Below are positions 5,568 to 59,559 of a stretch of 64,000 nucleotides of DNA, piece by piece. Position numbers and translations under genes: made by a program. The notes beneath the pieces were generated by a model that made no database searches, was not told the DNA's origin, and saw nothing but the letters and a program-made list of their open reading frames with translations. The DNA is from Halisarca cf. caerulea (Eukaryota; Porifera; Demospongiae; Chondrillida; Halisarcidae), in the NCBI GenBank assembly GCA_963170055.1, contig CAUJGJ010000125.1, forward strand, positions 2,127,401-2,191,400. The letters run 5' to 3'. Each line of letters begins with the position of its first letter. Within the stretch, counting starts at the first letter, position 1.

Positions 5568-16636
<11,069 letters not shown>

Positions 16637-17772: not shown

Positions 17773-19092
17773 TTATCCTGTCAATGGATGAAGGTTTACA
17801 GATATGTTTTCACCAGAACTCAGCACACCCACAATAGGGTAAAATCCACCAATAGGGATAGCAATTTCTGTTTCACCTATGTGAGTGCCATTTTTAGTGA
17901 AATACACAATACAGTGTGGACGCCCAATCTTTTTCTCAGCAGGTGTGTCATATATTCTCTGCTTTGCCGTCTTATACTTAACCACTTGAGGATAATCGTC
18001 GTAATCTGAGTCATAATATGACTCATCAGAGTCTACCTCACACTCCTCAGTCACTTCCTCTAATTCTCCCAGATCATCATCGGCAATTTTCACATCATCT
18101 CCATAGTAGGGATCCAAAAATTTGATCCCACATCCCATAACATCGCCTTTCACACACTTTGGACCAAACTTTGTGCCACTCCCACGCTCCTTGTACAGAT
18201 GCCCGTTGTCTGAATGATATCCCACAGATCCTTCATTCCAGCCAGGGAATTTGACCAGGGAATAATCTCTCTTTGCTAAACCAATACCAACCTCACAGCA
18301 TTCTCCTCCTTCTACTATGGTCAACTCAAAATAGTGATTGATAGGAGTTAGAAAGAAATTAGCGATGGCCACACCCACATCTCTCTTGGCATTGCTGGTG
18401 CCATCATAGTACAATGTTTCCCCACTTCTAAATCGTACTCCATTGCAGCGCATCCAGATAGAGTGTGGAGACACAATAGATTCCATAACCCCCAACTCTA
18501 GTGACTCAGGATCCCGGTAACTATGGCCAAGATATCGAACAGATTCTCCTTTGCTGTGCATCCCTATGAGCGGACAGAACCCTTGCAAAGGACGCTTCAT
18601 TTTTTCCGGCTCGCCAACCTTTTTGCCATTCTTCGTGAACCAAACCTTGGCGTATCCAGTGCCACAGTCGGTGGAAAAATCAATTCCGCACCCCATGATG
18701 TCACCCTTAGTGCATGTAGGCCCAAACGCTCGACCCGACCCGCTCTGGTGGAAAAGATGACCGTCGTCTGCATGATAACCAATACCATGCGAATTCCAAC
18801 CGGGCATCGCTGACATTGAGTATCCAGAATTCCCCACTCCTAGCCCCAGAGCAGTTCTCATACCTTTATCAAGTATTTCTATTTCAAAGTAATTCAATAG
18901 AGGAGACATGGGCTCCCACAATTTCACTACTCCAACTGACGATCCCTTGGACTGAGCGAAAGTAAACACTGAGCCTGTTTCATCTTTAGATGCTGCCTTT
19001 ACGTCAATGTTGTTACTCAAAGCACCGCCGTACTCCCTGTACAGATTAACTCGTTCATTTGCTGCTGCAGGAATGACTTCCTTGGCAGCCAT
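17773..19092 (-). CDS. SPRYD3: SPRY domain-containing protein 3-like, intronless
   Basis: A single exon of 439 codons from ATG at 19090-19092. I chose this Met (MAAKEVIPA) over the in-frame upstream one because the extension overlaps the 3' end of ERCC3 and is not conserved-looking. Two related SPRY/B30.2 halves are visible: residues about 60-200 (LGLGV, GWN-x5-GYHADDGHLF, FGPTCTKGDIMGCGIDF, VWFTKNGK) and about 265-435 (GIGLA, FPGWNEGSVGYHSDNGHLY, FGPKCVKGDVMGCGIKF, VYFTKNGTHIGE), the second interrupted by an acidic Asp/Glu/Tyr-rich insert near residue 355. Length and the two-SPRY layout match animal SPRYD3 (about 440 residues), whose molecular role is poorly known. It lies 68 bp downstream of the ERCC3 stop on the same strand. 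Confidence 0.85.
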   Translation of the reverse strand: MAAKEVIPAAANERVNLYREYGGALSNNIDVKAASKDETGSVFTFAQSKGSSVGVVKLWEPMSPLLNYFEIEILDKGMRTALGLGVGNSGYSMSAMPGWNSHGIGYHADDGHLFHQSGSGRAFGPTCTKGDIMGCGIDFSTDCGTGYAKVWFTKNGKKVGEPEKMKRPLQGFCPLIGMHSKGESVRYLGHSYRDPESLELGVMESIVSPHSIWMRCNGVRFRSGETLYYDGTSNAKRDVGVAIANFFLTPINHYFELTIVEGGECCEVGIGLAKRDYSLVKFPGWNEGSVGYHSDNGHLYKERGSGTKFGPKCVKGDVMGCGIKFLDPYYGDDVKIADDDLGELEEVTEECEVDSDESYYDSDYDDYPQVVKYKTAKQRIYDTPAEKKIGRPHCIVYFTKNGTHIGETEIAIPIGGFYPIVGVLSSGENISVNLHPLTG

Positions 19093-19159
19093 ATTTCTCG
19101 AGACCACGCAGGAATGCATAATACGGACAAACCACGACAAAATACGAAGAATCATGAAT

Positions 19160-36300: not shown

Positions 36301-39300
36301 CTTCCAGTTCCTCAGTGGCCATGCAAATCTTTAGTGCTCTTTTCATCAAACATTGTATGACTCCATACTTTATCCTGGGGTGATGGTCAGAGGTGTAGTG
36401 GATATAACGGTCAGTATGTGTCTTCTTCCGATAGACTGAGGTGATCAGTCTACAATCATCCTTCTTTACTAAAACATCCAAAAATGGCAGTTGACTCTCC
36501 TCCTCCATTGTGAATTGGATGCTGGGTCTCAAGGAATTCAGGTGCTGGTGAAACACACTCAATTCATCCATGTTCCCACTCTAGATCACAAAGGTGTCAT
36601 CCACATAACGTAGCCACATCTTGGGTTCTACTTCAGCTGTCTGCAGGGCCATCTCCTTGAAATACTCCATGTATGTATATGTTCGCAACGATCGGGGAAA
36701 ATGGGTTGCCCATGGCTGCACCATCAGTCTGTTCATAATACTCATCATTCCACATGAAGTAGGTTGAGGTGAGGCATATTCTGAGTAGGTGTTTAATCAT
36801 GGGGATTGACAATGTTGTGTCTGATGGGTCATTACATGATTCCAGTCTTCGGCCAATCACTTCCAGAGCTTCTTTAATTGGTACCTTGGTAAACAGAGAT
36901 TTCACATCCAAACTAACCAACCTGTCATCGCTACTCATCGAAAAATCTTGAATCTTCTGGACGAAATCCCCTGAATCCCTGACAAAGGACAAAGTCTTCC
37001 CGTCAGGGGAGAGATGACCCGTGCCAGGCTTTTTGCAACTTTGTACGTAGGGGATCTAATACATGAGACTATGGGTTGCATGGGTGTATTCTCCTTGTGA
37101 ATCTTCGGTAGACCGTACAGCTGTGGTGCGACACTATGGGGGGTACGTAACTGGTCATACACAATCTTATTAATCTCACCCGATTGGAAAAGGTGTCTAA
37201 GTTCGTCATTCACAGATTTCTCCACTCTTGCTGTAGGGTCAGCAACAACTTTCCTGCATTCACCTGCAAGACTTCTTGCATCTTTTCTTTGTAGTCACTT
37301 TGCTCATCACAACAGTCACATTTCCTTTGTCTTCAGGTAAAATCACTATGGAATCATCATATCTCAGGCCTGCTCTCATATCTCTGTTCAGATCTGACTT
37401 GGGAACCTTGGTTCTCTCTAGGCATCTCTTTGTTTGTACTCTGAACTCTTCTGCTTCCTTTTGTGGTAACTGTGTGGCTTTATCTTCAAGTGCTGTGATG
37501 ACGTCAACAACCGGAAGTGATCTTGGGGTAACCGAAAAATTGAGACAAGAGCCAGCACGCTCGTCTCTTCAGGTGACAGAGGACGTTTGCTGAGGTTCCT
37601 TATGGTTTTCTCGGCATCCAGCCCTCCGTTTGTCGTCAGGGATGAGCAGTTTCTAGCTTCCTGTAGTCGTCTAAACTTTTCTTGTTGTATGGTCTTGGTG
37701 TCTTCAAAAATCTTCTTGCTGCAGTTGTCGACCCTGCAGTTCCATTATAACTTTGTAGCCTTCCTCATCCACCTGTTCCCGAATCTCTTCTCTTGTCTTC
37801 TGTGAATTAGTGGTAAGATATCTCTTCGTCCCTACTGTGTTGCGTATTCTCTCGTTTAATAATGCGTGTTCAGCTCGTTGCTTGATTCTGTTGGCCGCGT
37901 GCGATCTTACTGGGAAATTGAGGCAAAGTCCTTTCAGGATGATGTCATTCTTTCGGCATCTCAACATGTAGGTTAGATGGTTCTTCGTCCTACTCAGCTT
38001 CTCTTCATTCCTTCTTAGCGTGTAACTGATACGTGTTACGGCTGGTCCTTCCACCTTCATTTGGTTAAGTTATAACACTCCAAATTTCAAGAAGGAATTA
38101 TACAAGTGGTCATAAACATTGAAATAACTTTATTTCTACAAGGCTGACAAAGATGAAACTTTCCTGGGTTATTCTGTGATAAATAAGGAAGATCTGGACG
38201 AGAAGAATAATGTATTGCATGTTCTATTTGAGTATCAGGCATAGGTAACTTCGAACGACCACCTGCTATACAGGATAAGAGCCTACCACCTTGAACTCCC
38301 ATCCAGACCTTCAGTTTGCTTTCAGATACTGACGCCCGCGAGTTTAGCCGTTTCGGGGAAACACCGCTATGGTTATTCTTGCTAGAAGATGGCACTTTCC
38401 ACGATGAATTGTAGTGACTTGAAAAAAGCGCTCGTATACCTGTAGTTGATATCAAAAAAAGAAGCTTAGAGTCCAAAGAAATCGTTTTGTGAGCCAATTC
38501 TGAAAGGACGACAAAAACCAAGCGATTTTCTATCCTTCGAATTTATCCACAACATCGCAACGCCTTGGTTGTTTGGCGACAAATATGAATAAATAACATA
38601 CCGCTGCGACAGATCGGTGGATACATTACGATAAAACGTTTATTTCATGCTCAGAAATGCCTCGTATAGCGAGAGAATTTCCGATTCTGTGATAAAAAGG
38701 ATTTCACGCCCTATTATGCTTCCCAGTAATGCTGATTGCCTCATTAGCAAATCCACAGAATATTACTTGAGGTGTGAAATTCCAAATATAAACAAAACTT
38801 TTTGCTGTATTGTTGGCTTTGTTGTGTGCATTTCATGAAATTAAACAGCATAAATCATGTACCCAGTCGTTCCTTCAACATATCCTTGAACATTAGAAAA
38901 TTCTGAGTATGTCACTTTAGCCAATACTGCTACCTTAAGAGTTTAGCAATAATAATAATAATAATAATAATTTCTTATTTTGACTGGGTGGCCATTAGCC
39001 TGAGGCTACTACTAAGGCCCCCAGTATCCCATACACTCGCTCACACACACAAACAAATTAAATCGAATTCAAATTGTTTGGTGGCTGTAGTAGGTCATCT
39101 TCTCAGCTGTCCCAGGTTGGTGGCAGGGAGGTTCAGAGAAAAAAAACTCCAAATGGCACACAGGTGGAGTGGTGCCTTCTGTCCAATGCTTGACTGACTT
39201 CAGAGCTAACCTACTGAGCCACCAGCACCCCCTTAATAGATCACATGCAGCCCATGTGATCCCATAACATTTCTACAATTCTGCTGATTTGGAATAAAGC

Positions 39301-42300
39301 ACAGACTTTTACAAAATAGCACCAAAAGTTTCACCAAATGATCTACACTATACAATGCATTACCTTATTCTCGTTACCCCCTTACATAATTATTGCTGTA
39401 GCAGTTAAAGTAATAAAAGCAAATCCCCTTGCATTAATAAACTTTCACTTTTCTCAAATATTAGATGAGAATCAGCAGAATAAGATATTTTGAAAACACA
39501 CATATTCTTACAGTTTAAAAAAGATGCTATTGGTATTGATCAGCGTATTTCTGTTTGAAAAGGGACATGTTTCGGCATTGCTTATTGCTATACTAAAGTG
39601 TGTGGACACATTGCACTATATTTTTCTTTGCACAATCCACTAAATTCATATATGCACAAAGGAGGCTGTGTGCCCTGGGTGGATGCACTGGGTGTATATC
39701 CTTGCTTTCCTGAGAATCCTTTGCCACTGAATTCTATGGAGCCCCATTTATCGACCATTTTACAAGGGAGCACAGAAGCTGCCTAGCTATTTTCATACTT
39801 TAAAAGAAGCATTCATCAGGATTTTGTCATACATTATGAGCACTGTAAAATTCTTCACACTGACAAGTTTTCAGAAATCAAAAGCAAAGTATGGGATAGA
39901 AAAATTTACAAATAAATCCTGTGAGTTTCGTCAGTACATATGTATAATATTTTGGGTGTCCATTGCAGTAGCCTCTGCTAAAGGCTCCCTATGGGTAAAA
40001 ATGACGTTACCTGCATGGTACTGTGTCAATCTATACATCCCTTCACCATTGTAAATAGTACATACTATGCACCCTTTTCCAATAAGCACCACATGCACCA
40101 GCTTACTTGTCTTGATCAATATCTTCGCCATTATAGAAGTGAAACTGAAGGCCTGCAGCTGCATTTTCAAGAGCTTCCTTTACTTCAACTGCCTCTCGAC
40201 TCCTAAGAAAAGCTCTGACACTTAGCTTTGAGGGTATTTTGAGCTGAAACAGTGCATCAGTAGGGAAGATCACAAGATACAGGTTGGCTGAATCCATGCC
40301 AGATTTCAAATCAATTATATTAAAAGTCTCCATCATAAAACTCCCTGTTGTAACACCTGCTTCGAAGTTGATTCCAATACTTATCTGTATTTCCATATTA
40401 TCCTCACGTCCATCTAAAAAAGGAGGTGTTATGATTCGTGAGATACTGTCGCCATTATCTTCATCAGAGTACCCAGCAGTTAGAATTACAGTGTTAACTC
40501 CATCTCCCTTTGTTGTACTGGCTTTAGCAAAAGCAATGTAAGAGTCAGAATCAAGAATGGGAGGATCATTGACATCTGAAACTTCTATTCTAAATGCTTG
40601 GGTACTGCTTTGCGGTGGAGTACCCTGATCTGTTGCAGTGACAGTGAATTCATAGTGGTCCTCCATCTCGAAGTTGAGGGACATACCAAGAATTATGGTG
40701 GTGTGTTGGAGTAATACAATAGAAGAGCCAAAAATGGCCAGAGTAACCACTGCATTAGGTCCTATATCTGCATCTGACACATTGACAAAGGCAATAGGAA
40801 TGTTGGGGCTATTATTCTCCTGTATTGTTATCATAGAAACATTCGGTACAATACTGGGAAAATTGTCATTCACATCCACTACAGCAATCTCCGCAGAAGT
40901 AAAAGCAGTTCCAGTGGCACTTTCTGCCGATACATTAAGTTGTACTGAGGAAAATTCTTCACGATCAAGTGTTATTGAGGATGATGCAAGACACACTTTT
41001 GCTCCAACCACTAAATCACTGTTACTATCCCTGACAATATCAAGCATAACATCTCCATCTGCCACATTCGGATTGATTCCCTCTATCCTGAAAGTAATAT
41101 CCCTAGCTCTAGACACTTCCAAGATTTCTAGTAGATAATCATTGGTACAGGTGACACCATGTATCTTTGTGTTCTCCGTGATATTGAAATTGTGGGTACT
41201 TTGAACAAATGTTAAGCTTCTCGGTACTATTTTTATTACTACTTTGACTGTTGATGTCACATGGTACTCACTGTCATCAGTGGCCCTCACAGTCAGGGTA
41301 ACATTCTGGTCAGCAGTAAACTTCTCTTCTCTCCTCTTGTAAATAACACCAGATACATTACCTATGGAAAAGTCGGAAAAAGTAAACATCCCTTCTGGAG
41401 TTCCAGTCACATCAATAATTTCAAACTCCACTCTGTCTTGATCAGGATCTCGTGCCATGATGCTGATAATTTCGCTCCCCGAGCTAATATTCGGGGCAAT
41501 ACGAACAGGATACTCTGACACATTCATACCAGCACCATTGATAAATGTTGGTGGAGTATCTGGTTGGTCAGCAACATGTATCGTTATAGTTCCAGTGTTA
41601 GTTTGACTAGGCAATCCATTGTCAGTCATTTCAATTAGCACTTCATAATTTTCTTGCAATTCAAAGTCAAGCTCATGTAGAAGAACTAATGCATTTCCTT
41701 GTAATTCAAATACATCGTTGTAGTTACCAAGCCGTGAAGACACAACAGCATTTGCTCCCTCATCCTTATCATTTGTAATGATGTTAAATATTGTCTGATT
41801 AGCACAACAGCGTTCCTGTATACTGTAATACAAAGGAGCAATCAGTTGTGGGGAGTTGTCATTTGCATCCAAAATATTCACTGTCAATACACCAGTGTCA
41901 ATGTGTTCGGAGTCATTTACCGCAATGACAAGATCAAAAGATGTGTAACCTTCATCTCTGTCTGCACCAAGGTAAAGAATACCATTGGGCATGTTGGGGC
42001 TGAACAGAAAAGGAAAATTTCCGTTTAAAATAGAGTAAGTAAAGGATGCTTGTTCATCCGGATCATAAACATTCAAATAGAATATTGGTACAGAAATACT
42101 AATATTATCTTCACGAATACTTATTGTCTGTGGGAGATTGGTGATATTTGGACCATTGTCATTGTCATCTTCAATGGTGACCACTACTGAACAATTTACA
42201 GTCACCGTGCTGGAGTTTGAGATTAGACTTGTTGCAGTAACCACAAAACTGTACACTCTTTGAGTAGATTCATAGTCCAAAGAATCTGTTGTATACAAAA

Positions 42301-45300
42301 TGCCATTGTTGTTAACTGCAAATACATCGGAATCATCGGTGAAAGACAAAGCTCCCTCATCTATTAGTGCTGCATTACTAGCAGATACTGTTATGTTACC
42401 TACATAGTGACCTCCTGACATTCTCTCAGAAACAGTAAAGGCAAAGGTATTGCGTTCACATGTTAATTCATCTGGTTCAAAGATGGCATTGATAATTACC
42501 GTTACTTGATTAGTTCTCAAGATACCATCCTGCCGATTACTAGCCACCACCAAAAATGAAATCACTCCAGGCAACAGTGGACGGGTAGCAGTGATGAGTC
42601 CCTTATCACTTATTCTAAATGAAACCGGAGGAGAAGCTTCGATGCTATATGTCACATCACTTACAAGATCATTGTCTGTTGTAGTCACCTGAAGGGATTC
42701 AGGAGCTAAGGGCACACGTGCAGAGAAACTAGCAACATAGATGTCTTCACCAAAGATTGGATCATGATCATTTATATCAAGAATGAAAACTTGAACAGCA
42801 ACAGTTGCATTCACCTCTTCTGAAAGGTCTACTGAGACCACTAGCTGGTAAACATCCTTTTGCTCTCTGTCAAAAGAGTTTAGAGCAATTAATTCACCAC
42901 TATTCTCACCAATTAAAAAGGAATCTGAATAATTTCCCTCAATCAGTGAGTATCGAAGAAGATTAAGAAGACTGTGTGGTACATTAGATGTCTTGATACT
43001 TCCTATTGATGTACCAATAGGAGAGTTTTCAGCAACAGAAAAATTTCTACTGTTGTCATCAAAAATTAACATGTTTGGTATAGCTGGAGAAACAAGGATA
43101 TCCACACGGACATCCGTAGATTGTACTGGTGTTCCTGCATCTCTGGCAGTAACTATTAAGACATATCGACCCTCTGAAGGACAAGTAGTTGGTGATATTA
43201 TCCCATTTGTTGTGTTAATTGTGAAATTACCACTACCAGAGAGGGAATAAATGATGTGCTCATTTATTCCATGATCACGATCAATTGCAGATACATTGAA
43301 ATTATTGGAAGAGCTGTCCACAGTGGATGAGCAGGTCAGCTCAAACACATAATGTGACTGCAAAAACTGGGGAGCATTGTTGTTAACATCTGTAATGTTG
43401 ATGTAGACATCTGCTGTCTGGTTGTGCTGGCCGGCTTCTACTTGAACACGAATGTGAAACATTCGAGGGACATTATTATTGTCTAGATAACGTAAGGTAG
43501 AAATTTCTCCGGTTGCTCCATCAATAATAAAATAATTTGAAGGAATTTGACTCAAAATTGTGTACATGGGTTCTTCCTGGACATAGTCAGGTAGCATACG
43601 TCCCACACTACCAACAAATGAACCTATTGTAGCATTCTCATCAACTGTGAACTGGAAACTGCTTTTAGGAAAAGTGGCAGTTTTGGAAGGATCCTCATTG
43701 ACAGTGATAACAACAAGAGCTGTGGAGGACATTGTGGGATTTCCACCGTCAGTTGCAGTAACAATTAGCAAATAGTGGCCAAGAGGCAGTGGTGCCACAG
43801 CAGGATACACCCTACCTGATGTGTTGTCAATGCTAAATAGAGTAGTGTTATCCAAAGAGAAATGAATGAATCCATTCATATTTGCATCTGGATCTGAAGC
43901 ATTGACTAAGAGGATGGTACTAGAGAGGCCACTGAGGTCAGTTGCTATCCCATGAAACACATTAGATTGAAAAGTGGGAGGATTATCATTTCTATCCAGA
44001 ACATTGATGGTAATGTTGGAGCGTGTTGTGGAACCAGATATTTCTGCAAGTGCTGCCAATTGTATCACAGGTTGTCTTTCTCTGTCAATTAGTCTCAGCA
44101 CAGTAAGATTCCATGTGTCTTTATCAAATTGCACAAATTCCCCACCCCCTGTTACTGTTACATTCACATGAGTACGGTTTAAGCGGGTACCATTTTCAGT
44201 ATTGGATGATATGCGAGTATACAAGAATACATCTAATGGCAAAGGAACCACCAATCCAAGCTTTGAGTTTTCTGTAATGTTAATACTATATTCTTCCTCT
44301 GAGAATTGTATCCATTCTTTAGGAACCTCTTCAACAAATATCGTAATGTTTAAGCTGTCTGATGTTACAACATCATAGGCAGTCTGATATTCCATATTAA
44401 TACAGTTCACAGTCAAATGATATTCAGGGTCGTGAGAGCCATCCAAGGAGATAAGCAGCACCAAATCTTGGCCATTAAGTTTGAAATTTCCACTTTCATC
44501 ATTTATGGTAGCAACTAAGTTACTATCTAGTGTATCTTCAGCAGTACAGCGAATAACCAAGATGGTGCTGTTTACTTGGGCTGTTTCTTTGATTGTAATG
44601 TTTGCACTGGAGACATTAATATTTGGTGTAGGTACAGTAAATACTCCAAATGTGACGTCTTGAGAATTAGATGTATATGTACCATCATTAGCAACCACTG
44701 AAATAGTCAGATTCCCTGTGGGTAGCTTCTTAGTTGCAGTAATATTCCCGCTCATCGAATCCACAGAAAAGTATGAATAATTGCTTCTGTTTTGTATGGT
44801 GTACATCAAATTCACAACAACATCACTATCAGAGGCACTGACTGTGTGGATAACCGTTTCCAGATCAATTTGTTCAGGTAGTTCAATAAATACCGTAGCA
44901 GGTTCGATGGTGGGGATAGCATCATTGATAGCTGCAATAGTAGATGAAACAAAATGAGATAACTTGGAGTTGAATTATGGCATGGACAACTATTAGTAGT
45001 GCATAATATTACCCGACAGCTCTACGTATGTCATAATATGTACGTACGTACAGTATATACTGTATAAGATCTATGATCAATTGCGTTTCATTCTATTTGT
45101 ACAGTAGGTCTGCACATACTGCACTGGAGCAATTTTCATGCAAAATGTTATGAATCGTAATAAGTCTCCAGAATAAATCCTAAATACAAGATAAACTCCT
45201 TGAGAATGTTACAACACATACAGTGAAACCTCACTAATCTGGCCAGATTGGGAACAAGAAATTTGGCCAGATTAGTGAGGTGGCCGAAATAGGCAGGTCC

Positions 45301-47487: not shown

Positions 47488-50198
47488 TGGCATGTTTCAT
47501 TGATCATCTCATAGCCATTGTCACAATCACACAAACCAGATGATGAGTTACAAGACTCATGTAATCCACAAATAGATTCATTACTTGAACAATTAGCTGA
47601 AGAAAAAAAAACGAGCATTTTCATTAGTAGGATATGAGAGAAGACCATACATGGAAACTGAAATCCAAGCAAGTACACGTATGTAGTGCTGTACAATATT
47701 GAATGAATTGTATGAATATAGAACACAAAATTAATTTTTTCTACTCCTAATGAATGCTTTCTACTTCTACTACAACTTCAATTTCCATTTTATTTTATGT
47801 TCTTTTTGTATCAAATCTCATTTTGTGGTCTTTTGTTCTCATTTTTGTATATGATGTCTTGTCTTCTGGGTGCTGGGTAGAGCAGCCCCTGGCTAACAGC
47901 CCCCCAGATAAAATAAGTATACCCAACCTGAATATACCGAATAAATAGTAATATGTACCGCAATATTATTTGTGCTAAATTCAGATACTGGCCAACTTTT
48001 TCCTATACCGAAATATCGTGTGATACCATGGTTTTCTTTGAGGATAGACCAGTATTGGAAGGACTAAACATAATAAGGTATTTTAAGGACATGAAATTCT
48101 ATCTTAGGTGATGTATTCAAAATCTGTTGAGCTGTTACTTCTGGCAGCCATGATTATTGGTGCAAAAGGAGCATAATATGTAGCATACATGAGTGTCAGT
48201 TGTGAATGCCTTCGATATGTGTGTGACAAGGATTCATTTGATATGTTGTCTACAGTTTCAACACTCGGTATACCGTGATAGAATGTGGGGAATATACCAA
48301 AACTGACTATTTGTGATACTGCACAGCCCTATATGTACATAAGAAATATCATATAATGTACTTTGAAGTATTCATGGATCATATGTATGTTAGAATTTGT
48401 GGAACTAACTTTCATACATTGCAAACACATACATAGTTCTCATCCTATGTGTGAATGCTTGCTTCATAACATAAATTACGTATGTACGTATCTGTCTGAA
48501 GTAAAACTCAGTGGGTAGCTACCAATCTGAAAAATACAACAAAGCTTCATCCCACAACATTAAGGTCTGTGAAGTGACATACAATACTGTGAACTGTACA
48601 ATACTAGAACAGCATTATGCTAAAATATACTACAAGCAGTCCTCTGAAATACTATACTATAAGAACCATATTTTGCTAGTGTGCAAGTATAAATGGGAAT
48701 AGTGATGACTCCACAGTATCACCAGAAGACCCTCAGCTGTGGGCTTGAGTATAAAAAATCAACCAAGACATAGTATTGAATTCAAATGCACTTACTAGCC
48801 ATAGGTGTTGCCGATGGAGTAATTGCTATAGACGCTGAGCTGGAATACATGCTAGAGAACGTAGGTGTAATAGATTCCACAGCACTACTACTTGAAGACA
48901 AGGAGCCAACTATGGAATTGGAAGTGACCTCAGAAGTAGACGATATTTCAAGCGTTGGTGTTAAATATGAGTCTTGTGATGAGGAAGCGCTGACAACAGA
49001 CTCCATAGTGCTGGTTGAGGAAGTGCTGACAACAGACTCCATACTGCTGGATGAGGAAGGGCTGACGACAAACTCCATACTGCTGGAGGAGGAAGGGCTG
49101 ACGACAAACTCCATACTACTGGATGAGGAAGTGCTGACAACAGATTCCATACTACTGGATGAGGAAGTGCTGACAACAGACTCCATACTACTGGAGGAGG
49201 AAGGGCTGACAACAGATTCCATACTACTGGATGAGGAAGTGCTGACAACAGATTCCATACTACTGGATGATGAAGCACTGACAACAAACTCCATACTACT
49301 GGATGAGGAAGGGCTGACAACAGACTCCATACTACTGGATGAGGAAGGGCTGACAACAAACTCCATACTACTGGATGAGGAAGTGCTGCTGACAAAAGAC
49401 TCCATACTGCTGGATGAGGAAGTGCTGCTGACAAAAGACTCCATACTGCTGGATGAGGAAGGGCTGACAACAGACTCCATACTACTGGATGAGGAAGGGC
49501 TGACAACAAACTCCATACTACTGGATGAGGAAGTGCTGTTGACAGCAGATTCCATACTGCTGGATGATGGAACACCAGCAGAAGACTCCATACCACTAGA
49601 TGATAAAGGATTAGCAAGAGATTCCACACTGGTACTTGCAATAGACTCTATGCTGGTAGATGACAAAGTAACAGTGTTGGCAGATTCCATGATGGATGAC
49701 ATTGAGGTACTATCAACAGACTCCATACTAGTGGACTGAATAAGGTTGGTAGCGTACACGCTGGTTACCTGAGCAGTATCAATAACTACAGATGATGACC
49801 TAGTAGCAGATATATCTTCGGTAGAGAGAGAAGTCATAGTTGGGGAGGAAGAATATCTGGTGCTATCTACTTCGGTGCTCTCTGGACTTTCGCTGGTCTG
49901 TAACGAACTGCCTAGACTACCCAGATCACCAGTGGAAGGTGCTGAAATCTGTACAGATACATCCGTCACGCTACTTACGGAATCAAGATTTAACGTTACG
50001 GTATCCGATTGACCCATTACCGACCAAAATGCTGCAAATGAAAGGACAGAGAAGCACACATTCGCGTACATTGAGAAGGACACATGCACGAATACATAGA
50101 GTATCTATGATAAGATCTACGTTCAAGTTCACACGATACAACTCACCAATGGTTGATAAGATGAGCAGCATGACAGAGATTTGCAAGTAATTCTTCAT
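33333..50198 (-). CDS. Large transmembrane cadherin with mucin-like N-terminus and EGF module
   Basis: Nine exons: 50147-50198, 48796-50031, 47486-47596, 40107-44931, 34439-34571, 34154-34362, 33994-34085, 33822-33916 and 33333-33575. They sum to 2332 codons with consistent phases. Exon 1 gives a signal peptide (MKNYLQISVMLLILS). Exon 2 (412 codons) is Ser/Thr-rich, with about 15 repeats of SSSSSMESVVS(P/T), expected to be heavily O-glycosylated. Exon 3 is one six-Cys EGF-like module (GLCDCDNGYEM). Exon 4, a 4.8-kb exon, encodes about 14 cadherin repeats; calcium-binding DxNDN-type motifs are clear in about half (DRNDNPP, DVNNNAP, DANDNSP, DVNDNFP, DVNDPP). Then come a membrane-proximal region, a 24-residue membrane segment (LIITIIIAVVLVVVIMGCGI) and a tail of about 150 residues with PLQPRNYSG and DPNYVKDE. 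I see no recognisable catenin-binding motif. Likely a cell-surface adhesion protein; paralogy to FAT, dachsous or protocadherins is unresolved. Confidence 0.9.
35322..35341. repeat. G homopolymer
   Basis: About 18-19 consecutive G in the long cadherin intron. Confidence 0.95.
35560..38060 (-). pseudogene. Decayed Penelope-like retroelement with GIY-YIG endonuclease
   Basis: Reading from the 5' side, the minus strand encodes an N-terminal basic region (37704-38060), a middle region (37276-37700), RT blocks QLYGLPKIHKE (36935-37225), DVKSLFTKVPI and AAMGNPFSPIVANIYI (36633-36992), the YVDD catalytic box (about 36600-36620), FLDVLV and the thumb (36185-36571), and a GIY-YIG domain with VYQIPCGDCEKSYIGETGRP (35722-36243). 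DVKSLFT plus a C-terminal GIY-YIG are hallmarks of Penelope-like elements. Frames change several times and a TAG falls a few codons after YVDD, so it is inactive. The flank at 35565-35592 carries ACGTTTCGCCCACTTGGACT. It sits in the largest cadherin intron, in the same orientation. Confidence 0.88.
38087..38626 (-). CDS. Possible nested two-exon gene inside the cadherin intron
   Basis: A short exon at 38602-38626 (ATG, 25 bp, strong GTATGT donor) joins in phase to 38087-38499 after a CTTTCAG acceptor, giving about 145 residues. The N-terminal third is basic/hydroxylated with hydrophobic LLFLIST, possibly an organelle-targeting sequence; the rest includes KVWMGVQGGRLLSC, PDTQIEHAIHY and FHLCQPC. 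I do not recognise it. An AATAAA lies near 38112-38125, just before the stop, which either marks a short 3' end or argues against the C-terminus. It could instead be a fragment of the adjacent retroelement's flank. Confidence 0.35.
38945..39233 (-). repeat. SINE-like repeat with AAT tail
   Basis: On the minus strand the sequence begins GGTGCTGGTGGCTCAGTAGG, close to the start of tRNA-derived SINEs (box A-like TGGCTCAGTAGG), runs about 270 bp and ends in an ATT trinucleotide tail (38948-38970 on plus). I could not place a convincing box B. A similar GACTGGGT-GGCC/AGCC-TTAGCC block at 62800-62830 suggests a repeated 3' part. Confidence 0.55.
45221..45397. mobile_element. Small TIR element (CAGT-nn-AACC family, copy 7)
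   Basis: Left end CAGTGAAACCTCACTAATCT; the right end TAGAGAGGCTTCACATT is a damaged inverse. It lies in the cadherin intron between the EGF exon and the cadherin-repeat exon. Confidence 0.6.
46377..47265. mobile_element. Element with CCAGGGGC termini, about 890 bp
   Basis: GTACCCAGGGGCGGATCC at the left and AATTTGCCCCTGGTACC at the right are inverted over about 11 bp; both subterminal regions contain GGGGGTGCT-like tracts. No transposase. CAGGGGCGGAT-type ends recall non-autonomous hAT-like elements in invertebrates (inference). Cadherin intron. Confidence 0.55.
47357..47485. repeat. CA microsatellite abutting the EGF exon
   Basis: CA array with an internal CTCA block (47406-47425). It ends directly at the splice donor of the EGF exon at 47486, so the donor GTGTGTGTG is itself part of the repeat. 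Confidence 0.95.
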
Positions 50199-51208
50199 GT
50201 TTGCAAGATCTTCACGACACTTACCGCTGACAAAACCCCAAAAAAATCCGTGGTGGCGGACACCAGGAACTCGGACTCGGATCTAATGGGCGGGGCGCCT
50301 GTAAAGCAGTAAACAACACGTGTTTTGGCACATCCGATGAATATGATTAAAGTTAGAGATTGGCAAAATTAATGTAAAATGGCCACGCCATGGATCCATG
50401 CTTGTATTATATGCTTATATATACATATTTTATGGCCATACCTCGACTCCAGGTACTTATAGGTTTACATTTATCTTGTATTCTGTACCAAACAGCTGAT
50501 GCTCACTACTGATAAGTGTGGGGATTGAGACATGCATGCAATGTTCAATCATTACTACTTGCATACCCATGAACAATATGACATTGCACACATGTATTTG
50601 ATACATGTGCATGCATTATATAAAATTGAGAAGATTCAATCATGCAATGTTTATTTGCATATACGTACAGTAAATCCTGTATTAAAGGACACCTCCAAAA
50701 TGCTCTGTCCCATTCAAAGTCACTCGCGCACTGCATGTGCATGATTGAATCCTCCCAAATAAGGACACCTCCATAAACAGGACAGCTTACTATGGTCCCA
50801 GTGGTGCCCTTATCAGGGAGGTTTCACTGTACACAATTAATACATAGCATAATACTACAAGTGATGCAGTCTGCAGGGTGTATGACCATGTACAATTTCT
50901 AACATGAAAAATCACTCTATATAGGTGGCTGACATGTGTATTGAGTGTTCCAACACTTATTCCACTAGATGGATTCATGCATGGAGCATGCCTCAAAATA
51001 ATTGATGGTGCTATTACATTACATACAATCCACAAATAATTTAATTCTATCTACAACACAGATATAGTACATGTGCAAAAACAACAAGTGAACTTAAATG
51101 AAATATATACACCAAGAACACACAGATACGTACACACCAAACACAATGGATATAAAGAAAGGATTATGAAGAAAAATCATGAATTTAGTCATCCATTAAT
51201 TGAGAAGT
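50199..51208. other. Intergenic: cadherin promoter side and 3' side of PI3K subunit A
   Basis: Contains a short GC-richer patch (50250-50320) just upstream of the cadherin start, plausibly its promoter, and a TIR element at 50668-50829. No further gene is visible. Confidence 0.5.
50668..50829. mobile_element. Small TIR element (CAGT family, copy 8)
   Basis: Left end CAGTAAATCCTGTATTAAAG, right end TTATCAGGGAGGTTTCACTG, flanked by TA. Its interior GGACACCTCCA is like that of copies 3 and 5. Confidence 0.7.
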
Positions 51209-52526
51209 TTATAGAAATGCTGGTTTTAGCAATGCAGTATCCATTTCTGGGTTATGCTTCTTTAGTGAGCAATGAGCATAGTGACAAATTAAATGCTCCA
51301 GTGATCTGAATTCCAAAGGATCAGCAAATCCATACCCGCCATTGGTGCTCCTCATTATTGCTATTCTCTTGTACTTATGAGCATCCCTATAGCAAATTTC
51401 ACAGGATCAAGAACAATCTATGTGGCCTACATTGTATAAAACTCACATCACATCAAGAGTGTGTGTGTGGTATATGCTCTTTTCCCTGTCCATGCATTCA
51501 GGTGGGTCCTTGGGCCGTACCAGAAAGGTACCATTTGGTTTGGTAGAAAGAAGTGATCGTGATTGTTCTCGCCTACACATACACATTTACACAATATGCA
51601 GGGGCAGAGCAATATAAAAAAACTACACCACTCACGATATGGAGTTGCTCAACCATGTTGTCTGATTCCTATGCGGCAATGTACTGTAATCCATTGAGCC
51701 CTTTGTAAAAGGATAACCATGTATACACTAATACTATTTGAACACATTTCACAGCCAAACTTACAGCAACCGTTTCATCCAAACTTGACTCGTCTCGACT
51801 GGAAAACTTTGGAGGACGGGTTAATGTAGGTGGGTAATGCTGCTGACGTCTTGACCGGGCAAAAGACTCCATGGACATCACAAGCCTGTCGTATTGCTCC
51901 CTGAATAATTTCAGAAATACAACTGACAGACCTCTATATTAAACAATTGCATATAACTCACTGGCTTCGCTCAGTATGAAGTAAGGCATAAATTTCATGA
52001 GGGTCTTCATACTGAGAGAAAGGCTCCTCCTTTTCAGTCATCCTTTGGTATATCTCTTCGTCTGTGAGACCTTGCTTGAGTAACCACCTGACATTGAATG
52101 TATAAAAACAATGAATACTTGAAAAACACTCTGATGACAACATGCTTACTTTCGATAGAAGTTTTTGCTTTCCGTTAGTTTAAGTATCTGAGGTTTCAAG
52201 GCTTGCATTCTCATATCCATATCCCTTGCATCTCTATCAAGGCAAGCCAGTTCTCTTTCCATCACCATCACTCCTTCTCCATGACCTTGAGCACGTCGTT
52301 TTACACATTCTACATTATCTTTCCACCTAAACAATACAGACAACCTCACTACAGAATTTCAGTAGCTCATGTCTAGAACCTACGCAGTAATTTCAGTGTT
52401 AGCTATAAAACTAGCTGATTTTGACTGTATTTCCTCATGCTCCCGAATCATATCCACAATTAACTTCTCTGAACTGATCTTCTCCCTTAAAGCATTGATT
52501 TCCTAGGCAAAAGAGGTAACAATAAT

Positions 52527-52575
<49 letters not shown>

Positions 52576-54947
52576 CGTGCGTGTGTGTGTGTGCATGATT
52601 GTGTGCATTCATACTCTACCTGACTGTACGTATCCTAACATCCACTGTAAAAGTAACTATGGATACAACATTGCCAGACAAAACGGAAAAAGAACCCCTC
52701 CACCGTGCTCAGCAAAGTATTTAGCCTAAAGACCTAGTATTCAATATTCCAAAATAATGACTGGACACGTCTCGTGTAGCCAGATCACACCCCTCCATGT
52801 TTGTTCCTGCAAACACAGAGGGGTGTCATTTGGCTACGTGAGACTAAATCTGCTATGCATAGAGGCATAGGAAACTAATAAAGGTTGCATACCATTGCTG
52901 CATCATCAGGTACTGTGCTCCCAAGAGATACACACATTACACTATAGATCCCACTAAACCTACCTGGTGGACAGTAGACCATTTACTATAATGATCGTTA
53001 TACTGCTTTGTGAGGTCCTCCATTCGAGCCTCTGCTTCAACTAAAGCTTTAATAATGGAATCAACATCATTAGCTATTAGGCCATCATCCTCCTAAAGAA
53101 GAATAAAGTAATATCCACAAAACATATGTAGCACAAACCACAGTTTTACATACTCTCATCTCCTCCTTTGAAACTGGATACAGGAGATTAGTGTCGAGCT
53201 TGTAACTGTAGGGCCTCAATGAATGATGCTTGTGATAATTGACCAATTCCACAACAGAATTAAATTCAAGCGGTTCTGAAAACCCATACTTCCCATCGTG
53301 ATAAATAATTCTAATAAGTCTGTTGACACCTCCAACTCTGCACAGAAAAATAAAAAAATGGAGTGCAAAGGGCCCTTCTTAATTGCATAATGCTTGAAAA
53401 ATGTCGTACATTAAACAAATATTCAAAACAGCTTTTACCTCAGACATGCATCATTACAAAATAGTTGTACCGTACTTCCTCCTAAAGATTTGGGAATCTA
53501 ATTTTCAACGGGGCAGCCTGATTTTGCCTACCAATACTTCTAAAAATTCGAATTTTACGCAACTCTGATATTCGTGCTAAACCCTCTAATTTCGACAATC
53601 GATTTTCTGTCTTCTGACTTCTTCTATATGGCAAACAAACTCTTCTTCCAATGTCAGGTTTCCAAACTTGTTTGTACACGTGGTACGCTCTAACAATACA
53701 AGAGATGAGAAAAAACAACAACCGGCGCTGCGACATCAGCCATCTTAAAAAGAGTCCCAAAATGGCCGTAAGAACGCGGGCTCTGTTTCAGTTTCGTGAC
53801 GAGTCTCCAATTTCATGAAGAGTCTCTGATTTTCGCAAAGCGCCTGTCAACAAGAAGACTTAACTTCTTAAATTTCAAAATATGTGATTTGAAACTACTA
53901 AAAATGTCCCAAATTTTAGAGGAAGTACAGTAATAATGGTACGTATACTCTGGACAAACTCTTATGTATACACACGCACATACTCTTAAAATCAGGAATG
54001 TTGGCTCCTGAGCCAGCATTCCTGATTTTAAGAGTATGTGCTTGACAGGGGCCTACTGTAATACGCACGTTCAATGTCCCTTAACTTAATTAGCACATAA
54101 TACCTGATATCATACATGCATTCATCAGGCTCACTTGAGTGTTAAGGTGTACTCTCCTACTACCTTTGCTGAATCCCTGACCAGAAAAGATCCATCTGAA
54201 CAATTTTTCATTATATCTATAACTTCCTCCCTATGTAGACAAAAGGAAAGTAAATATTATTATCTACACAACCAAGAAAAAGTATGTCTTTTCTCACCGA
54301 GATATGTTTCCCCAATACCATTCTGCATTTTCTAGCTTTGTGTCTCCATCAAAACCTCCTGGTGGCTGCTTTGGAGACAGAGGCGGGCCATTGACTACAT
54401 TGCTTCCATTATGAGAAGAGGTAAAAACATAAGTGGAATCTGACACTCTCTGGATGCTTGGCTGCCGTTGTACTGATATAGAACCCGCTGTCAAATTAGA
54501 GAATTGGAAATCAAAACAGTAAAGGAACTATCCTACTACACAGCACTCACCTCTGGGAGGAAGGGGAGGAGGAGTTTCTGGTTCAGGCACAGTAGGAAGA
54601 GGACGATCTGCAGCAATGACATGCATAGTAATAGTTCCATTACTGGCATAGTAGATCATCATACAAAAACTGATACCTATGTATGCATATAATTTCTATG
54701 GTATAACCTGTCATTATACGCAATAATAAATGGGATGACAGAGTTATGACTGCAACAATAGACAAATTACACTTTCAGGAGTAACAACACATTGAAACTG
54801 ATACTTACTGAATTTGACGGGTGATACACCTGCCGAGTCAGTACTTGGTCTCCTGGTGGGTACAGGAGGTGGCTGACCATCTGCAATGATTGTGTAACAC
54901 ATATAACACTGCGCCAGTAGGAACCTTGATAAAGTCTCACCTGACAT
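51209..54947 (-). CDS. PIK3R: PI3-kinase regulatory subunit, p85/p55-like (gene A)
   Basis: Fourteen exons: 54941-54947, 54809-54880, 54551-54607, 54298-54487, 54135-54230, 53154-53337, 52964-53092, 52384-52502, 52150-52326, 51962-52087, 51765-51900, 51636-51700, 51447-51572 and 51209-51386, giving 553 residues in one frame. The N-terminus has two proline-rich segments ([17 protein letters not shown]) and no SH3 or RhoGAP domain. The N-terminal SH2 runs from [11 protein letters not shown] through [14 protein letters not shown] and [12 protein letters not shown] to NLLYPVSK. The inter-SH2 coiled coil follows ([29 protein letters not shown]). The C-terminal SH2 has [20 protein letters not shown] and LKKHNPEMD. 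The layout equals vertebrate p55-type adaptors, which bind p110 through iSH2 and phospho-YxxM receptors through SH2. The tiny first exon (MSG) is the least certain part. Confidence 0.93.
52530..52592. repeat. GT microsatellite
   Basis: GT array with GC interruptions, in an intron of PI3K subunit gene A. Confidence 0.95.
52769..52844. mobile_element. Short TIR element (GTCTC-nn-GTAGCC family)
   Basis: GTCTCGTGTAGCCAGAT at the left is inverted as ATTTGGCTACGTGAGAC at the right; 76 bp. Related termini occur at 61236-61342. Intron of gene A. Confidence 0.7.
53468..53932. mobile_element. TIR element carrying a gene-like fragment
   Basis: TACCGTACTTCCTCCTAAAG at the left and CTTTTAGAGGAAGTACAGTA-like sequence at the right form imperfect terminal repeats. 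Inside, the minus strand at 53482-53760 is open for 92 codons and includes [18 protein letters not shown], which resembles a YHVYxxVWxPxxG motif seen in HIRAN-like ORFs of sponge and cnidarian genomes (recalled, not checked). A CpG-containing ATGGCTGATGTCGCAGC start-like site lies just upstream. It may be a captured host or viral-unrelated gene piece. It sits in an intron of PI3K gene A. Confidence 0.5.
53976..54041. repeat. Near-perfect 66-bp palindrome
   Basis: GCACATACTCTTAAAATCAG at the left is exactly inverted at the right, with arms of about 29-32 bp meeting at TTGGCTCCTGAGCCAG. Intron of gene A, immediately downstream (plus sense) of the TIR element at 53468-53932. Confidence 0.85.
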
Positions 54948-55735
54948 GATGATCGAAAGGTTAACCTATCAAAGAAGACATGAGAAAATTTAAAGAAGCA
55001 ACTTAGCCTAAACTACAAAATGAAAAAATAACTACCAGTAAGGTAGAGGTCGCAAATTTCGAACAGTTGTTAATTCCGAACACCGCTTTTCCTGAGCCCA
55101 GGAACGAAACTTGGGGGAATTTCAGCCTAGCATTTCTTAGCACTGATACAGGACATAACAGCTGTAGAAGAATAAAACTTAGATCTTTCTGCGTCGGCTA
55201 GGAGATACCCTGTTCGGAATTAACAACTGTTCGGAATTAGGGCCCTCTACCTTAATACTCTAAACTAATAAATAGTACAAATATCTTAGTAATGGTAAAG
55301 GTGTCGAATTAATCATAGACTCTATCCTATCGAAGGGTATACAATAACAAGGCATACAAACACAGGAAGTATGGTATGACAGTCCACCGACTCGGGATTC
55401 ACAAGCGAGAAGAAATTAAGCATTAGTGACACAAAAATGTGAACAAAACACAACATAACTCACCTTAAACAGGCCTGGGACAGCGTTGATAGTGTAACTA
55501 AACAATAAACACCACGGGCTTCGCCAAGAACCTCTTGCGTGTGGTTTGAGAAAGGAAGGGCGTGTCCATACAGAGTGATGTATAAATTACAGGAATCCTC
55601 TCTAGCTGTGCTTTCCTAAATTAATACAGTATAAATAGCAGCCTACCAGTATTATTATTCGTGATAATAGATAGCGGCAGATAGATACTGGAGACGTATA
55701 CGGAAAACAAGGAGATTTCTTATGAGATTTCTGCA
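54948..55735. promoter_or_regulatory. Divergent intergenic region between the two PI3K subunit genes
   Basis: 788 bp separate the two facing-away start codons. It must hold both promoters and 5' UTRs. A 216-bp inverted-repeat element occupies 55039-55254, close to gene A, leaving about 480 bp next to gene B. A CACGCAAGAGG-containing GC-richer patch lies at about 55510-55570. I could not identify a TATA box or start site with confidence. Confidence 0.55.
55039..55254. mobile_element. TIR element (TAAGGTAGAGG family, copy 1)
   Basis: TAAGGTAGAGGTCGCAAATT and AACAGTTGTTAATTCCGAAC at the left are inverted at the right end (ending CCCTCTACCTTA), giving terminal repeats of about 45 bp. The interior matches the element at 61783-61965. 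Confidence 0.8.
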
Positions 55736-58646
55736 ATGAATCACAAAGACGATTTGAAGTCACAGGAATGGTACTGGCCAAAAGCTGAACGGTTCGTATC
55801 GTGCGAATACGATAACTCAATACTTGTGGTGCCTTTGCAGTCGATGTAGAGTAGACCGAGTGCTTACAGATCACTGCAAATCGTTTTTGGTTACCTTTTG
55901 TGATTTTTGCTTATTTTGGTATCGATTGCTCATCCAGTAGAAGTGAAATAGCCGATGCCATGAAAGGAATGCCCGATGGCGCTTTTGTTGTGAGGAATTC
56001 CTCCTCCAGGGAAGGAGAATATACTTTAGTAGTGAGGTACGTCGAGTTAGCTAGCACTATTTGTTTCACCAGCTCGTCTTCTGGAGGATTTTTCTTTAAG
56101 CAACCCGTGGTTCAATCAATCAATGTAGTAATACTATACAGAATCCCTTTGGTAAAAGTGCCATCATTTGGACAGATGGTCCAACTTCACTGCAACTCGT
56201 CTGTTACATTAGACTGAATCTTAGACAATGCTGTTAGTCCATAGACCGAGCCATAGACCCTCGTGACTTATGAATCTCTTTGTAATGCAAACTGAACATT
56301 AAGTTTTTGATAAGTAGTAATTACCTTAAAAGTAGTAAATACCTTTTGTATCTTGTGCATTTTTATGCTACATTTTGTGATTGCAAGTAACCTTTTGCGT
56401 TTTGCAGGAAAGGAGGAACCACAAAACTTCTGAGAATCCTAGAATACAATTCTCAGTATGGCTTGGCTCATCATCTCATGTATGCATCCGTTGTTGAGCT
56501 GGTATCTTACTATCAGTGCCACACTTTGGCAGAATACAATCCCGGGTTGGACATTGCATTGCTGTACCCTGTGCCTGATCCACGGAGGGTGAGATTCTGT
56601 AAACTTGGTGTAGATAAGTATGAGAATGTGATGTGCACTATGTTGGACAATCAACATGGATGTCTGCAGTCTCCCCTCAGCTAATGCCTGGGGAAAGTAT
56701 ACACTGCCAATATTAAACAGAGTTTTCCTATCCTGTTTGAAATTTGGACATCAGATTTTTAAACTTTTAATTCATACAATTCCTGAATCCCAAGTCTACT
56801 AATGTCTAGTCTGGCCTGCTATGACCATCCCATATACCCCCACCCCCCAGCGCGTATGTGGGACAGTCGTAGCAGTCCAGGCTAACTAATCCCACACTCT
56901 ACAATGTTATCTATCATCAATATTGCCATGCAGCTGGTCTTTGACATTGAGCACCTTTTTTGATCACTGTTTGGCTTGTACGTATGTATGTGATAACTGT
57001 TGTTTTTGTCTGTGTATTATGTTAGCATTGCCCTGCTGTATTTTGTCTCAGAGGAAGGCCTCGGTGTCACTAAGAGGAATGATTGTCCGATTAAAGGAGG
57101 CTAACATAAGATATCGTGAGAAGCTAACAGAATATAATGAAATGCGTAAAGAATATTCTTTGTGTATAGATGTAAGCTAATGTTCCCATGCTTTATCTTT
57201 GATGCTATTAGCAGTGTTTTGTCTGTGTAGGTAGTATATGTGTACTTTGGCGAATAATTGATGGGCCGATCACGAGGTTTGCTACTTTCTTAGAAACTAC
57301 AGCAATTGCGCTTGGAGTTGGAGTCAGAGAGCAAAGTAGTACAGCTGTATGAGTCACAGAAAATTGAATATTTTGAATGTTTGAAAAGTGTTGGGGAATC
57401 AGAGAAGTTTTTGTGAGCTGAACTTTTTGATGAACTCAAATATGAATTGCTAGCATATTATGTGCTTGGTTGTCATTGTTAATCTTAGGTACTTGCAAAA
57501 TTTTGACCGAATGAAATACAAACTTACTGAATGTTTGGAGTGTTGTGATGACCTTAAAACTAAACTCCACTTGGCAGACATGCACTGCAGCCATCTTGAT
57601 GTAAGGATTAATGAGGTTAAGCCTGAATTGATAGAGCTTGAAAGGGAAAATTCAGAATTGACAAGGTTCATATACATCCCATAATATCTAACAATGTGGC
57701 TATTGATACGTTAAGTATTGTATGTAATGAATCTTCTCTTTGTTGTATACTTATTTCTTCAGTTGGCTTCAATGTCATGGCATAACTACCCGAGAACTGC
57801 AGAGGTACTTGCCACAAGTTAGTGATGAGAGCATTGTAGCTGGAGATAGGAAGGAAAACCTATATGACCTCTACTCCCGTCTACATCTTAGAGAGTGAGT
57901 TGTCCCTTCACTACTGCAACTGTCGTGGAACACTTACTTGTGTGCATTCTTTTTAACATGAACCATCTACTTCAATTTAGGTATGGTGAAGAACTGGATG
58001 ATTCCCTTTATGTTGTCAGTTGTATATATGTTGTACTGATGTGCAAGCATTTTACTAATACAGTGTCTTGTTGCTGGTCCTCCAGGATGCTCCGGTTGAC
58101 TTACGTGAAAAGATCCCACAGCTAGATTCTAGTGGGTGGCTTGCTAAGGAATTCAGGTCTGTATTTCTTACTCATGCATGTCTTTAGTGTTTTATTTTTC
58201 TACCACACTGTGTACTGTACAATAACTTGTATGTTTGCTTTGTACTTGTGTAGTCGAGTGGACTCAGTAAAATGCCTATCTAGTACACCAAATGGCACAT
58301 TTATCATTCGCCCTAAGAATTACTATGTGTTGGATGATGGTCACTCTTCAGAAAACAGTGCCCCAGTTCACACACACACTTTGGATATCATGTAAGTTAA
58401 ACTGAAAAAAACTGTAGTGAGATGTGTGTATATTAACTAGCTATAGTTTTCAGGTCTTCTAAAGGTGTTTTACATATACGGATATTTCAAGACAAGAGTG
58501 GAGGCTATGGATTTGCAGAACCTTTTAACATATCTTCAATTACAGAGCTTGTATTGTTTTACTCCAGCAATCCTCTTAATAGACACAACCCTAAATTACC
58601 ACCAGAACTGAAGCTGAACTACCCATACTTTTCAGAACATAAGTAG
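55736..58646 (+). CDS. PIK3R: PI3-kinase regulatory subunit, p50-like (gene B)
   Basis: Eleven exons: 55736-55791, 55938-56036, 56408-56588, 57052-57171, 57303-57412, 57489-57665, 57763-57894, 57981-58014, 58086-58156, 58254-58391 and 58454-58646, 436 residues, about the length of vertebrate p50-type subunits. The protein starts almost directly at the N-terminal SH2 (EWYWPKAERRSEI), with FVVRNS, GEYTLVVRKGGTTKLLRI and LLYPVPD. The inter-SH2 coiled coil spans residues about 112-290 (LRGMIVRLKEANIRYREKL, VKPELIELERE). The C-terminal SH2 has SSGWL, NGTFIIRPKN, GGYGFAEPFNI and LNRHNPKLP. The phosphotyrosine-binding Arg is kept in both SH2 domains. It lacks the proline-rich N-terminus of gene A. 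Several exon junctions match gene A in position and phase (for example after THTLDIM / THTLDVM), supporting a duplication. Confidence 0.93.
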
Positions 58647-58946
58647 TTTTTTTGAAACCTTTTTATACAGTAGACATGTGTAAATATGAACTTGGTTTTG
58701 TTGGAAGAAAAATTTATGGTCAGCCACTATTAAATACAGATCCATGTAATATTGGTATACATGTGCGCAAGGGAATGCATGTATTATATGTGTCTATGGT
58801 GTAGGTATATATGATATTACTGTATAGGATGGGTTTTAATTGCATATTGCAACATGTACTGCGTTTCAGGGCATGCACAGTAGATTGCATTTTTAAGAAT
58901 ATTTCCTAACATATAACTACATACAGACCAGGCTATTAATTGGTTA

Positions 58947-59244
58947 CAGGCCTGTAGCCAGGTTATGGGGGGGGGGGGGGGGGGTCTTCTGGCCAAAGTG
59001 GAACTCTTCGCTACGTAAATGGCCATTGTGGCTGATTACATTTTGCTGGACGGACAATCTGATCTTGAAGTATTTGGATACTAGCTTTATTTCATAAATC
59101 TAAAAAGTACTAGTTATAGTAAGTTCTCATGAAACAAGGCTATAGAATGTCTGTTTTATTTTCAGTGTTGTTTGCCAGGTGGAACTGGCTTCTAAGTGGG
59201 GGGGGTGCTTCTGCACCCCCCGAACCCCCCTGGCTACGGGCCTG
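58947..59244. mobile_element. TIR element with CAGGCC-GTAGCCAGG ends
   Basis: CAGGCCTGTAGCCAGG at the left and CCTGGCTACGGGCCTG at the right are inverted with one mismatch. About 298 bp, with a long G homopolymer near the left end and GGGGGTGC...GCACCCCCC near the right. Such ends recall non-autonomous hAT-like elements (inference). Confidence 0.75.
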
Positions 59245-59380
59245 GGTTATAATACATCTTTAATATTTGTGCCTAGCAATTAGCTAGCAATCATGCAGTG
59301 TTTATTTCAATGTAGCAATTAAAACCCATCCTACGGTATACAATCATCTCAAGCATAACACATTTGAACCTAGCTCTCTA

Positions 59381-59559
59381 GAATGAACCTCGGATACAAT
59401 GAACTCCATGATATAACACATAATATATTACAAACGCTAAGTAATTAGAATTTACATGCCTGCATGCACCTTGCATGCATGATGTAGCTAGAGCAAACAC
59501 CCAATATAGTAAGCCTCTTCTGTGGTCCTGCAGGTGTTTGTTACGGTGAGGTTTGACTG
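59381..59559. mobile_element. Small TIR element (CAGT-nn-AACC family, copy 9)
   Basis: A decayed left end (GAATGAACCTCGGATACAAT) and a good right end (TTACGGTGAGGTTTGACTG followed by TA). Confidence 0.55.

Follow-up and report, generated by a model that had tools for sequence, protein, structure and literature searches.

The 64,000-nucleotide window of the Halisarca cf. caerulea genome that was analyzed here (C114:2127401-2191400; the genome comprises 194,469,755 bases in 454 contigs) contained two genes, designated A and B, that are transcribed away from each other and were confirmed as encoding predicted class IA regulatory subunits of phosphoinositide 3-kinase (PI3K) with the SH2-iSH2-SH2 architecture. 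The two genes are probably working sponge paralogues of the p85/p55 type that originated from a duplication predating the separation of this sponge from the lineages of Dysidea and Halichondria. Gene A would then be the counterpart of the adaptor in these demosponges, whereas gene B, which lacks an N-terminal extension, would represent a second lineage that evolves fast. The notable points are this second adaptor lineage, which appears to be old, and a probable third adaptor gene elsewhere in the genome. Coordinates of A and B are given as window positions, and residues are numbered as in p85alpha. The names of SH2 strands and loops and the overall description of how p85 works belong to the common background of the family.

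Gene A (51209..54947, minus strand) was reconstructed from 14 coding exons with a total of 1662 nt, which encode 553 residues and a stop codon. The splice model, Pfam, and the match to p85alpha gave the order of a proline-rich N-terminus, the N-terminal SH2 domain (nSH2), the inter-SH2 domain (iSH2), a linker, and the C-terminal SH2 domain (cSH2). In the splice model, exon 1 (54941..54947) carries the start codon, exons 2 (54809..54880) and 3 (54551..54607) encode the proline-rich part, and the nSH2 starts in exon 4 (54298..54487), continues with FLVR in exon 5 (54135..54230), and ends in exon 6 (53154..53337). The iSH2 is encoded by exons 7 (52964..53092), 8 (52384..52502), 9 (52150..52326), and 10 (51962..52087), the last of which also enters the linker that continues in exon 11 (51765..51900). 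The cSH2 starts in exon 12 (51636..51700), contains FLVRPK and, according to the alignment, a sponge-type insert in exon 13 (51447..51572), and ends with the stop codon in exon 14 (51209..51386).

Gene B (55736..58646, plus strand) was reconstructed from 11 coding exons with a total of 1320 nt, which encode 439 residues and a stop codon. The same three sources gave the order of nSH2, iSH2, linker, and cSH2, without a proline-rich N-terminus. Exon 1 (55736..55791) carries the start codon and the start of the nSH2, which contains FVVR in exon 2 (55938..56036) and ends in exon 3 (56408..56588). Exons 4 (57052..57171), 5 (57294..57412), and 6 (57489..57665) encode the iSH2, which ends together with part of the linker in exon 7 (57763..57894), followed by the linker exon 8 (57981..58014) and the start of the cSH2 in exon 9 (58086..58156). 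Exon 10 (58254..58391) contains FIIRPK and, in the alignment, the sponge-type insert, and exon 11 (58454..58646) encodes the end of the cSH2 and the stop codon. Additional backing for the model came from P0121, a protein record of the Joint Genome Institute (JGI; 255 residues from a 1,989-base contig) that is identical to residues 122-376 of B and crosses six splice junctions. P0121 also supports the exon-8 donor (58014|GTCAGT). The simplest reading of P0121 is that of an assembled cDNA in which intron 10 of B seems to have been retained, as the record stops at the point where this intron would begin.

All 23 introns between coding exons of the two genes were GT-AG, and 19 of these carried a stop codon in frame. 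The 60-nt intron 1 of A had none and could also be coding. The reconstruction agreed with the original prediction of two complete nSH2-iSH2-cSH2 genes with phase-consistent models and of a 553-residue, proline-rich product of A, and revised the length of B, which had been given as 436 residues. Introns 4-13 of A and introns 1-10 of B agreed in order and phase in 10 of 10 cases, with the linker introns matching approximately in position, and the second and third iSH2 exons of both genes measured 119 and 177 nt. Exon 7 of A (43 residues) and exon 4 of B (40 residues) were in phase 0 at both ends, similar to exon 11 of human PIK3R1, which encodes residues 434-475 according to the part of the source available (PMC11750134) and of which both are the counterparts. 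In the p85alpha alignment, the right end of the A exon coincided exactly with that of the human exon and the left end to within one residue. The common intron structure speaks against a retrocopy origin of either gene and reveals little about the date of the duplication. Conserved introns were also considered as proof of a recent duplication and were rejected as such, as the boundaries of the 434-475 exon are found in human PIK3R1 as well.

Both proteins matched the SH2 and PI3K_P85_iSH2 families of Pfam above the curated cut-offs (58.2 bits against a cut-off of 31.5 for the iSH2 of A). Pfam recognized one SH2 stretch only in B, and its C-terminal SH2 domain was seen by BLASTP to A and in alignments including other sponges. 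The best solved-structure match of both proteins was p85alpha (E-values of 2.2e-60 for A and 1.5e-51 for B), and these similarities are far beyond chance. An iSH2 model of B built from P0121 with an alignment of 20 sequences showed a confident two-helix antiparallel coiled coil (block pLDDT of 91-98 over residues 1-140), and the remainder was of low confidence and uninformative. The three best comparisons of this model with p85 iSH2 structures gave template modeling scores by target of 0.81-0.90 and root-mean-square deviations of 1.2-2.4.

The phosphate-binding arginines (aA and bB5) were kept in all four SH2 domains of A and B. The difference between FLVR and FVVR/FIIR, originally interpreted as a signal of specificity, does not hold as such, as the arginine is retained throughout and the differing letters are merely hydrophobic. 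Among the iSH2 residues that contact the C2 domain of p110, B contained D560 and N564, and A contained D560 and a glutamine at position 564; both positions also vary among accepted class IA regulatory subunits. Other differences between the domains may be of consequence. In the EF region of the nSH2, F and P were present in 20 of 21 rows and were replaced by L and H in B alone. In the cSH2, the position corresponding to p85beta Tyr677 was L in A but F or Y in each of the remaining 19 full-length rows; this tyrosine is described as the main contact by which the cSH2 restrains p110beta in the portion of the source available (PMC3670040).

The relationship of A and B was examined in trees that comprised both proteins and 18 relatives, namely eight demosponge-type rows, Sycon ciliatum, and nine bilaterian-type rows. 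Two of the demosponge-type rows are named and six were labeled by their place in the tree, and two of the bilaterian-type rows are unnamed. The relatives were drawn from a protein search with A that matched 1538 proteins, of which 120 were listed, so that the other matches may include additional paralogues from sponges. In the full-length trees, A joined the eight demosponge-type rows to the exclusion of B with support of 97/95, or 95/94 with a second alignment; in these trees, A and B were not closest relatives. The cSH2 tree agreed in placing B outside this group (85/84). Approximately unbiased (AU) tests on the full length gave p values of 0.027 and 0.0405 for the two alignments when A and B were held together, and of 0.031 and 0.058 when B was placed with the eight demosponge-type rows but without A. 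This branching order had moderate support. Taken together with the characters described next, it is most economically read as a duplication that took place in the sponge lineage and preceded the divergence of A from its Dysidea and Halichondria counterparts.

Discrete characters were examined because of the great length of the B branch, which measured 2.45 and 2.62 changes per column in the two alignments. Position 379 was R in A, in a third gene (C, described below), and in all eight demosponge-type rows, and K in B, Sycon, and all nine bilaterian-type rows. Similarly, cSH2 position bD4 was R in A and the eight demosponge-type rows, and H in B, Sycon, and the nine bilaterian-type rows. If A and B were sisters, two reversals would therefore be needed to account for K379 and the cSH2 histidine in B. 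The long cSH2 insert of the demosponge type (17 residues in A and 15-18 in the eight demosponge-type rows) was also present in B, with 21 residues, whereas it was partly present in Sycon (11) and absent from the nine bilaterian-type rows (6-7).

Several observations weigh against an early duplication that produced two working adaptors. The place of B in the trees may be an artifact of its very long branch. Support for a group comprising A, B, and the eight demosponge-type rows was only 82/68, and a grouping of B with Sycon was not rejected (AU p 0.272). In the iSH2 tree, which conflicts with the full-length trees, A grouped with Sycon and the bilaterians (87/85), and B was joined, with weak support, to six of the eight demosponge-type rows. 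None of the single-domain AU tests rejected a pairing of A with B (p values of 0.069 for nSH2, 0.384 for iSH2, and 0.315 for cSH2). An orthologue of B was not recovered from another sponge: the whole-protein search returned P0121 only (1 of 3419 candidates) and the search with the cSH2 region returned P0121 and a Dysidea protein only (2 of 41 candidates), both searches being of low sensitivity as they rely on exact shared words, and the former having missed clear p85 relatives. A record identical to A was not present among the 120 matches listed. Furthermore, the regulation of A may be non-standard, as suggested by L at the cSH2 inhibitory contact and Q at the N564 position.

The same single-domain tests bear on the original prediction that A and B were produced by a local inverted duplication. 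A duplication in the recent history of the Halisarca lineage itself, followed by fast evolution of B, would account for the adjacency of the two genes, the ten common intron phases, and the sponge-type cSH2 insert present in both. On the other hand, any pair of genes from this family should have intron phases in common, the pairing was disfavored by the full-length AU tests, and it requires the two reversals in B. The two proteins were 28% identical (BLASTP), DNA matches between the genes reached only 27-30 bp, and fourfold silent sites with the same amino acid were saturated, with equal third bases at 19 of 50 sites compared with 14.7 expected. A recent local duplication is thus unlikely, although a pairing of A with B was not rejected on single domains.

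The very long branch, the cSH2 missed by Pfam, and the EF region changed from F to L and from P to H in B alone could also indicate that B is decaying, or that it has taken on another function and retains only the fold. However, the frame of B was intact over 11 exons with GT-AG introns throughout, the key arginines and iSH2 contact residues were kept, and a spliced JGI record exists, which makes both readings improbable. A false linkage of two distant genes in the assembly, which might be considered given that old paralogues are not expected side by side unless they are a local pair, is scarcely credible, as both genes lie on one contig of 2,244,800 bases with no N within positions 50500-59500, and no second copy of A or B was found among the candidates scored in searches of the same genome (24 and 21).

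A and B were compared with known proteins. The vertebrate short forms are either paralogues or products of alternative promoters, whereas the sponge forms are separate genes. Like vertebrate p55gamma (PIK3R3) and p50/p55alpha, A and B consist of nSH2-iSH2-cSH2 without SH3 and RhoGAP domains; they also resemble these in their heads, that of A being short and proline-rich and that of B almost absent, and differ from them in the long cSH2 insert of the sponge proteins. The iSH2 identity to four vertebrate rows was 21-23%. A sponge affinity was seen in the PI3K genes, as the listed matches of A included proteins of Dysidea avara, Halichondria panicea, and Sycon ciliatum. The regulatory subunit gamma-like protein of D. 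avara (P0001) was the best of the matches of A that were listed (40% identity over 82%) and, besides P0121, the sole match of the B cSH2 region (41%), and B fell outside the group formed by A, P0001, and seven others. The gamma-like protein of H. panicea (P0007) was 33% identical to A and resembled it in domains and cSH2 insert, but has a longer proline-rich head and a total of 666 residues. The alpha-like protein of S. ciliatum (P0013) was 31% identical to A; it shares with B a short head, K379, and the cSH2 histidine, but has a shorter insert and is 25% identical to B in the iSH2. No relative of the linked loci was found in genome_contigs (45 pattern stretches) or viral_contigs (22), a result to be expected, as these collections contain no animals.

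The start codons of A and B are 788 bp apart, as originally predicted, and a spliced record is available for B only. An inverted-repeat search identified a 216-bp element between them (55039..55254) that resembles a miniature inverted-repeat transposable element (MITE) and was found at 39 other places with 89-98% identity (40 candidates scored of 160). Two more inverted-repeat structures were located in intron 5 of A (53468-53932 and 53973-54044), one of which is a hairpin with 35-nt arms that are 94% complementary. The 216-bp element sits within a predicted intron in the 5' untranslated region (UTR) of A (54966..55463, minus strand, GTGAGT...TGATAG). If this intron is real, A would start beyond 55464. 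A candidate shared promoter region would then be 55465..55735, which contains GGGCGTG at 55558 and, on the plus strand, TATAAA at 55581 and 55630, all being resemblances to promoter motifs only. The start sites would be approximately 200 bp apart or less, on either side of these motifs, if, in addition, B starts below the second TATAAA, with a predicted start near 55660. The CpG observed/expected ratio was 0.82 between the genes compared with 0.39 for the window, a value reached by 119 of 1275 window segments, and thus weakly suggests a promoter. It is possible that A and B share one.

The head-to-head placement had been regarded as remarkable, but its spacing is ordinary for a compact sponge genome because close head-to-head genes are common in Amphimedon queenslandica. 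The portion of the source available reports 11,379 head-to-head genes with start sites within 1 kb in this sponge (almost one third of its genes), a median intergenic distance of 587 bp, and Sp1/GC-box motifs in about 36% of bidirectional compared with 29% of unidirectional promoters (PMC4773876). The Amphimedon pairs are likewise divergent, but A and B are paralogues, and that portion does not state the share of paralogue pairs. That the neighbors are paralogues is the less usual part of the arrangement. A further proposal, which is tentative and rather doubtful, is that sponges have an ancient B lineage whose head-to-head arrangement with A predates the divergence of the demosponge orders and has been maintained by a shared promoter. 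The work might then be divided between A, with a usual nSH2 surface and without the aromatic cSH2 inhibitory contact, and B, with an aromatic residue there and a remodeled nSH2 EF loop.

The search with A also detected a third nSH2 at C434:180910-181209 (48% identity). A phase-consistent reading of gene C (G000:C434:179988-181209) comprised nSH2 exons, with the preceding exon and the first iSH2 residues following in phase; the gene is only partly readable, as its remainder is N. Gene C therefore probably encodes another class IA adaptor, the third of this genome. It lacked the second of the two nSH2 introns common to A and B, and its nSH2 had identities of 52% with A and 40% with B. With these values, the possibility that C is a haplotype copy of either gene was rejected, and the nSH2 tree gave C no firm place. 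Two loci that encode the p85-binding domain of class IA p110 scored above the cut-off (G000:C76:42052-42276 and G000:C2:3297519-3297731). A whole-genome search with the Pfam iSH2 family returned nothing, not even A or B, probably due to the splitting of the domain over short exons, and this result was not counted against the genes. The count of three adaptor genes, with gene C as a probable one, is a lower bound given the insensitivity of the iSH2 profile search.

Outside the PI3K genes, the window contained an uninterrupted FAT4-like open frame of 1623 residues with eight Pfam cadherin matches (40103-44974, minus strand) and an array at 48782-50104 of a 36-bp unit (16.2 copies at 48978-49572) that is open on both strands and whose minus strand encodes a repeat protein rich in serine. 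The minus strand also contained a piece of a protein kinase gene (16118-16696; Pfam PK_Tyr_Ser-Thr), a protein with two SPRY matches (17773-19230), and open frames that resemble retroelement pieces (35722-37055), one of which has a GIY-YIG match of 21.7 bits, slightly below the Pfam cut-off of 22.6.

Given the fold and the contact residues, A and B would each bind a p110 catalytic subunit by way of the iSH2 coiled coil and keep it inhibited, and binding of the SH2 domains to receptor phosphotyrosines would release p110. Changes in the SH2 loops suggest that A and B may dock differently, and the two also differ in the head. A, B, and C would compete for the two p110 subunits of the genome. The original prediction that invertebrates usually have one such gene agrees with a survey reporting only one class IA regulatory subunit for animals that are not jawed vertebrates, the available portion of which does not state whether a sponge adaptor was in the set (PMC4617754). 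Several adaptors are therefore unusual for an invertebrate, and no description of several class IA adaptors in a sponge was recognized among the papers listed by searches of an open-access library. If the present interpretation is true, PI3K adaptors were elaborated independently close to the root of the animal tree as well, with at least three adaptors and two p110 loci, and Halisarca would offer a natural case for asking how competing adaptors share catalytic subunits.

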